Assembly (NCBI RefSeq): GCF_001428505.1
Contig: NZ_LMHU01000001.1
Span: 202,273 to 266,272 of the forward strand
From: Terrabacter sp. Root181
GTDB lineage: Bacteria > Actinomycetota > Actinomycetes > Actinomycetales > Dermatophilaceae
Direction: 5' to 3'
Length of the DNA: 64,000 nucleotides
A program made the position numbers and the translations under genes. Below are positions 39,201 to 41,089 of the stretch, piece by piece (within the stretch, counting starts at the first letter, position 1; each line of letters opens with the position of its first letter). The notes beneath the pieces were generated by a model, which made no database searches, was not told the DNA's origin, and saw only the letters and a program-made list of their open reading frames with translations.

Positions 39201-39936
39201 TGAACTGGTAGAGGAACCAGTTCTGCGTCGGGTCGGGTGTCTGCGAGTAGGCGATGCACATCGGGAACGTGCCGCCGGGACCGGTCGCCGAGTTCGGGTT
39301 GGTGAACTGGCTGATCATGAACCGGTCGGCCTCCTGGTCGTAGAGGACGATCGGGTCGCCGGCGTTCTGGTTGCGGCACTGGTCGAAGCCGGTGCCGGCC
39401 GTCGTGCCGTTCTGCCAGAGCACGTTGATGTTGGTGGGGCCGGCGAGCGAGGTGCCCTGCTTGTTCCAGATCTGGATCTGGGAGTTGACCATCTGGACGT
39501 AGTGGTTGGGCCCCACGTCACCGTTGGGGTCGGGCGGGGTGAACGGGCTCGTCTGTCCGGCGAAGGACACGAGCGGCGCGGTGAGCTCCTGGCCGGCGTC
39601 GAAGGACGGGGCCGCCTTGGTCGTCGCGGAGGCGAGGGTCTTGCTCGTCTGGAGGACGGGGTCCTTGGCGCCCGGTGTCTTCGTGGTGGCGCTCGCGTGC
39701 CCGCGCCCGAGGCCCTCGCCCGGGTCGACGCGCGTCGCGCTGGGGTGGTGGCTCAGCTTCTTGAGCGGCGTCGTGGTCCTCCCGGCCGCGAAGGGTTGGC
39801 TGACGTAGGGCCCCGGTTCTCTGCCGCTCTGCATCACCGTGCCCTGGCTCGAAGTGATGGCCAGTGCGGAGGTCATCGGCAGCGATGCCGCCATCAGAGT
39901 GACCGCCAGCACGCGCGGGATGAGATGCGCTGTCAT
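36265..39936 (-). CDS. Large secreted protein with five DUF11 repeats
   Basis: 1223 residues, Sec signal peptide AHLIPRVLAVTLMAASLPMTSALA. Residues about 110-560 are a conserved N-terminal region with motifs such as PDPNGDVGPNHYVQMVN and YSQTPDPTQNWFLYQFNLP, seen in actinobacterial secreted proteins. Then five DUF11-type beta repeats start at SDLRITKTDSPDPVVAG, ADLAVTKVCKPD, ADLQVTKTGPAS, ADLRVTKTDSPDP and ADVWLDKQ. There is no sortase LPxTG or membrane anchor; it ends VMKGGTGK. DUF11 domains are adhesin-like in other bacteria. ATG 39936 has AAGGAAC upstream. It is by far the longest gene in the window. Confidence 0.85.
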   Translation of the reverse strand: MTAHLIPRVLAVTLMAASLPMTSALAITSSQGTVMQSGREPGPYVSQPFAAGRTTTPLKKLSHHPSATRVDPGEGLGRGHASATTKTPGAKDPVLQTSKTLASATTKAAPSFDAGQELTAPLVSFAGQTSPFTPPDPNGDVGPNHYVQMVNSQIQIWNKQGTSLAGPTNINVLWQNGTTAGTGFDQCRNQNAGDPIVLYDQEADRFMISQFTNPNSATGPGGTFPMCIAYSQTPDPTQNWFLYQFNLPRSHDYMKYGIWPDGLYMSTYEGGAVGAYAFDRGQMLSGSPATFQSFSVGVGGGVDGRERRIVPADWDGANPPPAGAPNPFAMSFDGAFDGGNDRIEIRSFHVDWATPANTTFTLTDTVNTAAFDTDLSCTPTFRDCIPQPGTTQKVDGITNRLMARLQYRNFADHQAMVINQTVDADGANRAGVRWYELRNTGAGWSIFQQGTYAPVDGVHRWMAAAAMDGRGDIALGYSASDGTTTFPSLAYTARSVNDPLGSMPQGEQTMTAGTAFQAGSNRWGDYAGLNVDPVDDCTYWLTGMHDNGLTTIGSFRMPSCLQSDLRITKTDSPDPVVAGQDLTYTLTATNDGPATAQAVTVTDVLPAGVSLVSAPGCTNAAGTLTCAVGTLLPAQSVVIGIQVHVPSNFLGTNASGLITNTASVAAANQTDPTPGNNTATATTTVLAKADLAVTKVCKPDTTAPAGTEAFCDIHVDNLGPSDAVTVTLTDVLTSSTPFSVTGVTVTPSGTCAPTAAGPATAITITCDLGTEPAGGRTTVRVLVTAADVAEVNDVATVSSPTPDPVTANNQATGKVVFTGSADLQVTKTGPASVVAGTPIQYVVTVTNNGPSRAVGTVVTDRLPTGVTFVSVSTTVGTCTYGQPTGHDLTCNLGNLNAGASAVVTVNGTVAPDVTPGTILVNEAVVSSTTADPDNANNRVSVPTGVTASADLRVTKTDSPDPVIAGGLLTWTITATNGGPSTATSVLLTDTLPTGVTFVSGVDNNGQTVCTLVQTASVECAVGTLQPSQTATVQLTVRVDPSLDPGTVLTNSVVVSSPTPDPVPGNNTATAGTTVNTRADVWLDKQASKRSGNPSPTLIYTLVVHNDTGCETDAQSTQTPTCGTGGPSDARDIVVTDALPLTNKKLVVQYVSPQCTYTKATHTVRCTSANVPAGASVTFVIESQVSGSVGTILNTASVTSSTPDLTLGNNTNAASIVMKGGTGK

Positions 39937-40071: not shown

Positions 40072-40208
40072 GAGGGGCGCCGCTACGGTGGGGGTGTCTG
40101 TGGGAACGGTGCGTATGCGTGGGGCGGGACCGCAGCGGAGTGCACTTTGTCCCGCGGCCGGCCGCACGGCATACGCCTCGGTCGCGCCGACGTGCCTAGG
40201 CTGCGGTC

Positions 40209-40535
40209 ATGGCGACATCACGCGCGGGGAAGTGGTCGATCGCGTCCCGGGACTCGTTCCTGTCGATCGGGTCGACGGGATCGGTGCTCTCGATCGGGAG
40301 CGCGGGGTCGGTGCTCTCGATCGGCAGTGTCGGCTCGTTCGCGTCGTTCCTGTCGATCGGGTCGTCGATGAGCGCGCTCTCGCTGCTGTCGAACATGTCG
40401 CGACTGTCGGTGCTCTCGCACCAGAGCGACGGGTCGGTCCTGTCGGCGCAGTCGAAGCGGGCGGTGCGCGGCTACCGCGTCAACGGGACGCCGGATCGGG
40501 GACGGTCCTCGGCGGTCGAGCCGGCCGGGCGGTAG
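40209..40535 (+). CDS. Serine-triplet (xxS) repeat protein
   Basis: 108 residues. From residue 10 to 82 every third residue is Ser, 25 in a row: KWS IAS RDS FLS IGS TGS VLS and so on. The other two positions favour Leu, Ile, Val, Gly and Met, a pattern that could build a three-residue-per-strand solenoid or polyproline-II-like rod. The tail (83-108) is basic and overlaps the convergent RibD-like gene by 64 nt. No signal peptide, no Cys. TAGGCT at 40196-40201 lies 7 nt before ATG 40209, fitting a leaderless promoter. I do not recognise a named family. Confidence 0.68.
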   Translation: MATSRAGKWSIASRDSFLSIGSTGSVLSIGSAGSVLSIGSVGSFASFLSIGSSMSALSLLSNMSRLSVLSHQSDGSVLSAQSKRAVRGYRVNGTPDRGRSSAVEPAGR

Positions 40536-41089
40536 ACGAGCCAGAGTGCGCCGGTCGGGGTCGGGGTGGCGCTGACCAGGGTGAGGCGCTGGAGTTCGGC
40601 CAGGCAGTCGAAGAGGCGGCGACCCTCGGGGTCGAGGACGGGCGCGACGGCGAGGTGGAGCTCGTCGACGAGGCCCTCGGCGAGCAGTGACCGGGCGAGC
40701 TCGATGCTGCCGTGGACGCCGATGTCGTTGCCGGGCAAGGCTTTCAGGTCGCGGACGACGTCGGCGAGGGGGCCCTGGACGACCTCGGCGTCACCCCACT
40801 GCGTCGTGAGCGGGCTGGACGTGACGACGTACTTCTTGACGCCGTTGATGAAGTCGGCGAAGGGCTGCTCGTCGGAGGTCGGCCAGTAGCGCGACCACTC
40901 GTCGTACATGTGGCGGCCGAGGAGCACGGCGTCCTGCCGCTCGATGAGGGCCGTCTCGCGCTCGATGAGGACGTCGTCGAACGTCGGCGGCTGGGGCTTG
41001 TCGGGGTCGACGTCGGGCGGGAAGCAGCGCGTGGGGTCGTCGACGGAGCCGTCGAGCGAGGTGATGGTGTAGAGCACGATCCGGCGCAC
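40472..41089 (-). CDS. RibD C-terminal/DHFR-fold protein
   Basis: 205 residues: RRIVLYTITSLDGSVDDP, DAVLLGRHMYDEWSRYWP, KYVVTSSPL and DIGVHGSIELARSLLAEGLVDELHLAVAPV. The second member of this family in the window, divergent in sequence from 27635-28228. GTG 41089 follows AGGAG. It lies 21 nt after the winged-helix/glycosylase-like gene in the same direction and may be cotranscribed. Confidence 0.87.
   Translation of the reverse strand: MRRIVLYTITSLDGSVDDPTRCFPPDVDPDKPQPPTFDDVLIERETALIERQDAVLLGRHMYDEWSRYWPTSDEQPFADFINGVKKYVVTSSPLTTQWGDAEVVQGPLADVVRDLKALPGNDIGVHGSIELARSLLAEGLVDELHLAVAPVLDPEGRRLFDCLAELQRLTLVSATPTPTGALWLVYRPAGSTAEDRPRSGVPLTR

Follow-up and report, generated by a model that had tools for sequence, protein, structure and literature searches.

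xxS, an uncharacterised family of small actinobacterial proteins with serine at every third residue

In the window, i.e., the whole stretch of 64,000 nucleotides analysed here, the open reading frame 40209-40535 is a genuine gene for a small protein and belongs to an uncharacterised family in Actinomycetota, referred to as xxS in the following. To the regular serine spacing, the present analysis adds a variation in length by steps of nine residues, the near absence of proline, a sharply spaced -10-like box and an optional hydrophobic tail.

Table 1. Coordinates of the xxS gene, its parts and adjoining features in the window
Feature	Position	Strand	Remarks
DUF11 surface-type protein, about 1,223 aa	36265-39936	-	Likely start at 39936
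Antisense shadow ORF, 66 aa, PTLPIESTDP type	40196..40396	-	Judged not a gene
TAGGCT, -10-like hexamer, 6 nt before ATG	40197..40202	+	Identical in loci L039-L045
xxS gene, 108 aa	40209..40535	+	Translation, homologues, Ser-keeping codon differences
Ser-triplet run, residues 10-82	40236..40454	+	25/25 in-phase Ser; family-wide nonapeptide units
Core, residues 16-64	40254..40400	+	49 residues; D, E, K, R, H and P all absent
Tail motif KRAVRGYRVNG, residues after the run	40455..40487	+	Tails of loci L048, L052, L057, L060 and L090 compared by eye
RibD_C family gene (PF01872), convergent	40472..41089	-	Adjoins xxS in 6/7 genus loci

The serine run and selection on its reading frame

The original prediction of 25 serines at a strict three-residue spacing proved exact, as serine occupies every one of the positions 10, 13 ... 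82 and the stretch holds 26 serines in total, 25 of them in phase. Among 200,000 composition-preserving shuffles none had 25 serines in phase, the maximum being 18, and in a six-frame scan of the whole 64 kb the Ser-every-third score was 25 for xxS and 8 for the runner-up. The codons used are as varied as had been stated, comprising 20 TCG, 3 AGC and 1 AGT, to which 1 TCC is to be added.

For the family, alignments were built on the best 80 of 313 loci, giving 81 rows in alignment A2 and in the profile derived with it; these had been collected with the motif GS[VT]LSIGS[VA]G as seed, and conservation around residues 24-42 is therefore partly built in. In this motif-seeded set of the best 80 of 313 relatives, the 25 serine columns average 97% Ser, and the commonest residue in the columns between them reaches 56% and 74%. 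The repeat unit of the family is a nonapeptide, S-h-L-S-h-G-S-h-G, in which the third residue of a triplet agrees at 0.526 at a lag of three triplets, compared with 0.166-0.217 at lags of 1, 2, 4 and 5. In alignment A2 the region equivalent to residues 10-82 measures 64, 73 and 82 residues in 26, 54 and 1 of the 81 sequences, and all gap runs inside it span 9 or 18 columns. In the first alignment, the distant relative L030, which is outside A2, showed gaps of 6, 3 and 3, and run lengths obtained by scoring range from 21 to 31 triplets with unclean steps, as the ends fray. The step of nine could reflect either a structural unit or a 27-bp unit of DNA slippage.

As judged from the aligned sequences, the core avoids both proline and charge: proline accounts for 9 of 5,867 run residues, and the longest segment lacking all of D, E, K, R, H and P extends over 32-65 residues, with a median of 49 that is also the value of the window protein. 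The runs consist of 34% Ser and 12% Gly, the latter occupying 36% of one triplet position, and the hydrophobicity amplitude is 0.848 at a period of 3 vs 0.046 at 3.6 (54 members). In many relatives the run is flanked by WSLWSxDS (e.g., WSLWSRDS) and SRWSVLSWRS (by eye).

Serine can be encoded by TCN as well as AGY codons, which differ in both of their first two bases. At 20 in-phase positions from residue 16 on, ungapped in all 80 relatives (best 80 of 313 loci), both codon types were present at 17 positions, and the 1,600 codons comprised 1,385 TCN, 185 AGY and 30 non-Ser codons, figures that count sequences and not independent events. Exchange between the two types while serine is kept points to selection on this frame, not to a DNA repeat, and identifies the sense frame as the gene. 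Consistently, a dN/dS-type check, as called for by the original prediction, gave a pN/pS of 0.458 in the xxS frame vs 1.41, 1.27, 1.65, 0.81 and 1.40 in the five others (74 codons, all pairs among eight genus members taken together). The pattern is thus under selection at the level of the protein. The serine codons of the family are, as a separate observation, strongly biased to TCN (1,385 vs 185 AGY; best 80 of 313).

A DNA repeat alone, which had been named as a possible trivial cause of the serine pattern, was rejected. Tandem Repeats Finder reported a 27-bp imperfect array at 40235-40324 (82-84% match, with a 13-bp reading at the same place) and a 9-bp imperfect array at 40335-40365 (72% match); these arrays end by 40365 and the serine phase reaches 40454, so that the pattern outlives the DNA repeat.

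Promoter, gene neighbourhood and distribution

When the ATG nearest to the run is used as the start, a choice that ignored the upstream sequence, the gap between the end of a NANNNT hexamer and the ATG is exactly 6 nt at 55 of 75 loci and 7 nt at 11, all other offsets from 0 to 30 being represented by at most five loci each; position -1 is C in 60 of the 75. The box reads TAGGCT in the window's genus and TACGAT, CACGAT or CAGGAT in many Streptomyces. Since its distance to the ATG equals that of a -10 box to a transcription start site, the mRNA is probably leaderless and would start at the A of the ATG, in agreement with the leaderless-type promoter proposed originally. Upstream of the box, GGCATACG at 40168-40175 is common to the window and six of the seven genus loci, L041 lacking it, and may pair with CGTGCC just before the -10 box in an operator-like inverted repeat.

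At its 3' end, xxS overlaps the RibD_C gene tail to tail by 64 nt (40472-40535), an arrangement that may accompany the loss of a hydrophobic tail considered below. On the other side, a gene with an NAD-binding dehydrogenase domain is divergent from xxS in 6/7 genus loci (PF01118 over the cut-off in the window and in L045). In the window, a small ORF and the DUF11 gene displace this gene to 34502 onwards. The listed DUF11 ORF starts at 40167, and a signal-peptide-like start was found at 39936 by eye. Within the 16-kb loci from seven close relatives nothing matched the DUF11 gene; the DUF11 arrangement is hence local and looks like an insertion between xxS and the dehydrogenase-like gene, and a link between xxS and DUF11 is not supported.

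A search for partner genes used home-made ORF calls on 80 loci (best 80 of 313) and all-against-all BLAST. Its two largest clusters were the xxS frame itself and the antisense shadow. Clusters that kept a steady position close to the gene were limited to groups, namely the genus loci, about six Streptomyces and five uncultured-actinobacterium loci (L055, L068, L071, L084, L100), and a cluster of 14 loci across several genera showed scattered distances on both strands. No partner gene at a steady position was found beyond such groups in the best 80 of 313 loci, a result from a crude ORF caller that often took the antisense frame and could let a weak partner escape notice. This outcome fits a stand-alone protein.

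The nearest named relatives (L039-L045) are Terrabacter tumescens, T. aerolatus, three other Terrabacter, one Terracoccus and one Intrasporangiaceae bacterium. Homologues carrying the pattern, anticipated by the original prediction, were found in 8/9 genomes of the window's genus, the ninth genome being 74% complete, and as 313 confirmed stretches in a collection of 84,980 species; the best 80 of these bear actinobacterial labels except L071 and L100 ("uncultured bacterium"). In the window's taxonomic family, the 81-row profile at E 1e-12 was positive for 31 of 186 genomes, which represent 14 of 53 genera; at the same E it was positive for 54 of 199 genomes of a genus that is most likely Streptomyces. 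At E 1e-6 the profile found 28 of 396 phylum-sampled genomes, own genome included, the weakest matches being short and maybe compositional. All these profile tallies are possibly low because 11 to 25 first-look candidates were scored per genome. A search with the window protein itself hit 16 of 58 relatives at E 0.01, the weaker of these hits being compositional, and at E 1e-4 it hit 20 of the 396 phylum genomes. The spread is broad but patchy, and outside the window's genus xxS is an accessory gene.

Seven Streptomyces plasmid records contain a partial match over 30% of the query; six of these copies, all from S. zaomyceticus, lie at most about 11 kb from the end of the record and the seventh about 48 kb from it. 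In the Streptomyces set, contig C1 of genome G637 holds equal-scoring copies at 68762-69073 and 8591020-8591331, in opposite orientation and about 8.5 Mb apart, as in terminal inverted repeats. Phage records gave no xxS match, 0/50 pattern stretches from viral contigs were confirmed with alignment A2, and the window protein had no match in PHROGs, PADLOC or the phage and viral collections; an origin from phage, or a role as phage or defence gene, is accordingly unsupported by these sets.

Structure, membrane tail and possible roles of the run

The window protein stays below every cut-off in Pfam and NCBIfam. In the latter, HxsA4 (NF038313) is the best match and is hit weakly by 78 of the 81 members (best E 4.1e-5), the window protein scoring E 0.0024 and 18.7 bits at a cut-off of 55. 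The best Pfam match among the 81 members has an E of 0.0058, and one member touches PPE (E 0.06); Forkhead_N (E 0.062, 14.4 bits vs a cut-off of 22) was dismissed as compositional, like other scattered matches. Against solved structures, the profile gave ten matches at E up to 10; (TGS)n stretches in kinesin light chain constructs rank highest (E 0.0012-0.0069), and the rest have E 3 or worse. The peptide strings SVLSIGS, LSIGSVGS, SIGSAGS and GSVLSIG had no match in the open-licence full-text literature searched.

AlphaFold2 gave a mean pLDDT of 48.0 for the window protein with 81 sequences, with low-confidence helices at 44-51 and 56-93, in a region with block means of about 48-56, and no strand. 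A long Streptomyces relative (L116), run as a single sequence, gave a mean of 43.4, helices at 104-123 (tail) and 71-75 (short), and block means >50 in the tail only. Such low-confidence models are compatible with an ordered fold, a beta-solenoid included. Of the originally proposed selection on structure, perhaps a solenoid or rod, selection on the protein pattern thus stands and the solenoid or rod stays conjectural, no confident AlphaFold2 fold having emerged.

A hydrophobic tail, defined as 17 residues averaging at least 1.5 on the Kyte-Doolittle scale and with ten too-short tails scored as without, is present in 46/80 of the best 80 of 313 loci, often ending with Arg after it (by eye). 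The window protein has no hydrophobic C-terminal tail (by eye) and no segment that would count as a C-terminal transmembrane segment; its seven genus relatives lack such a tail as well (tail maxima at most 0.12). In some Nocardioides, Janibacter and Luteimicrobium relatives, a counterpart of KRAVRGYRVNG precedes the hydrophobic C-terminal segment (by eye). As the genus retains this pre-anchor motif, xRAVRGxRxxG, without the segment, its hydrophobic anchor was probably lost. On a transfer-free-energy scale, 8 of 66 measurable tails cost 1.0 or less, and among the runs the cheapest 19-residue segment costs 2.1 to insert, an unfavourable value, which makes membrane insertion doubtful even for many tails.

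Our favoured, still tentative reading, with a probability of roughly 0.36, is a self-packing and often tail-anchored scaffold at or near the cytoplasmic membrane. Here, the nonapeptide units would form a regular, backbone-hydrogen-bonded element with a ladder of serine hydroxyls on one face, the two remaining faces carrying V/I/A/L and G/L. Via these faces xxS copies could pack into an oligomer or short fibre, which might then act as a structural scaffold near the cytoplasmic membrane and thereby play a role in the envelope. The C-terminal tail could hold this scaffold at the membrane in the 46/80 loci (best 80 of 313) featuring it, and in the window's genus the tail would have been lost to leave the pre-anchor motif alone. 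The low-confidence helices, the gaps of L030 and the motif-seeded loci led us to weigh the scaffold slightly lower and disorder slightly higher, and the failure of AlphaFold2 speaks against every ordered model, without excluding one.

An intrinsically disordered, low-complexity segment, kept for polarity and flexibility, is the rather unlikely alternative that survives best. The low pLDDT in both predictions is what such a segment would give; however, the core is uncharged, nearly free of proline and rich in V/I/L, and disordered linkers of GC-rich actinobacteria differ from such a core. Moreover, there is no second domain to link, and a linker needs no strict phase. The near absence of proline and charge argues against plain disorder and also against a polyproline-type helix.

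A bolder reading, unlikely in our estimate, would have the nonapeptide as the unit of a repeat fold absent from the structure databases, with three residues per turn and a fibre or membrane pore lined by serine hydroxyls; xxS would then represent a new structural class of actinobacterial envelope proteins with leaderless genes that are easily lost or gained. The strict pattern recurs in distant branches of the phylum, lies under the cut-offs of the searched family libraries and yields no confident AlphaFold2 model, and the family thus offers a clear-cut case in which to test for a repeat fold overlooked by sequence methods. With its natural steps in length, members with and without the tail, and constant serines, it makes structure and function directly testable in soil bacteria.

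Placing the run itself in the membrane, as helices with one Ser-lined face that oligomerise to a small pore or channel, appears quite improbable to us. The 49 uncharged residues of the window protein and the caps with charge and Trp that border the run at either end in many relatives (by eye) would suit this option, a strict period of 3 would create one polar face if the helix has three residues per turn, and synthetic Leu-Ser channel peptides reportedly set a precedent. Yet, a period of 3 yields no amphipathic alpha helix, Ser and Gly make up 34% and 12% of the runs, and the minimum insertion cost of 2.1 for 19 residues is unfavourable.

Even less is to be expected from a role as substrate for serine modification, comparable to the His-Xaa-Ser (Hxs) radical-SAM systems, in which the triplet would be the recognition register of an enzyme. 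The widespread, weak HxsA4 matches described above are in its favour; against it, the window protein scores 18.7 bits under a cut-off of 55, a His-x-Ser repeat is absent (by eye) and no enzyme partner gene was found in the best 80 of 313 loci. HxsB (TIGR03978) was over the cut-off in 0/18 genomes and below it in 12/18 as well as in 14/14 controls, and the own genome had no HxsC (TIGR03977) over the cut-off and one sub-threshold match (34.9 bits vs 267.9), the best HxsB score being 75.3 vs 370 in a genus member. Because sub-threshold matches occur in 14/14 controls too, they look like general radical-SAM enzymes.

We give hardly any credence to the antisense ORF 40196-40396 or a DNA-level element, and not the xxS frame, being the selected thing, as the TCN/AGY exchanges preserve the sense serine and by the genetic code turn Asp/Glu into Leu in the shadow ORF, pN/pS in the shadow frame is 0.81 vs 0.46 in the sense frame, and the -10 box lies on the sense strand at a fixed spacing. 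In its support, the gene table of NZ_CP108701.1 lists an antisense CDS over the N-terminal half together with a truncated sense CDS, and in 6/7 genus loci xxS differs from the window at 0.119-0.209 of synonymous sites vs 0.184-0.51 for neighbour genes, a comparison over 74 codons only to which L044 is an exception (0.295 vs 0.253-0.255). This low synonymous divergence may reflect codon preference or a second constraint. The shadow ORF has a periodic pattern of its own. NZ_CP108701.1, whose table truncates the sense xxS CDS, is a Streptomyces plasmid record, and in NZ_CP108232.1 the sense CDS is annotated as hypothetical protein; antisense entries of the kind seen in NZ_CP108701.1 may leave the family annotated too rarely.

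Comparison with known systems

Short repeats are shared by xxS with the hexapeptide, pentapeptide and RTX solenoids, and the RTX repeat unit likewise comprises nine residues. None of these three families appeared among the Pfam matches of the 81 members at E up to 0.1. With HxsA4 (NF038313), xxS has serine at each third residue in common but differs in its score (18.7 bits vs a cut-off of 55) and in having no maturase over the cut-off.

The mycobacterial PE_PGRS proteins and xxS both feature short-period actinobacterial repeats. PGRS domains form polyglycine II sandwiches in AlphaFold models and have been proposed to be sited at the membrane edge (Berisio and Delogu, 2022, PMC9436101). In contrast, the constant residue of xxS is Ser and not Gly, V/I/L are frequent, and AlphaFold2 gave no confident model.

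Tail-anchored proteins of Streptomyces coelicolor (Craney et al., 2011, PMC3087755) offer a further comparison, from which the window's genus departs in being without a tail. An N-terminal signal is absent from the tail-anchored set, and the N-terminus of the window protein, MATSRAGKWSIASRDS, is short and polar by eye. Table 1 of that paper prints the tails alone of its 20 proteins, too little to place any of them in the xxS family; SCO2900, which has a similar-looking tail, is described there by conserved Pro and Arg residues. Both N-in and N-out orientations are described for tail-anchored proteins, which, like the xxS family, are small, carry a C-terminal hydrophobic segment and are in many cases hypothetical.
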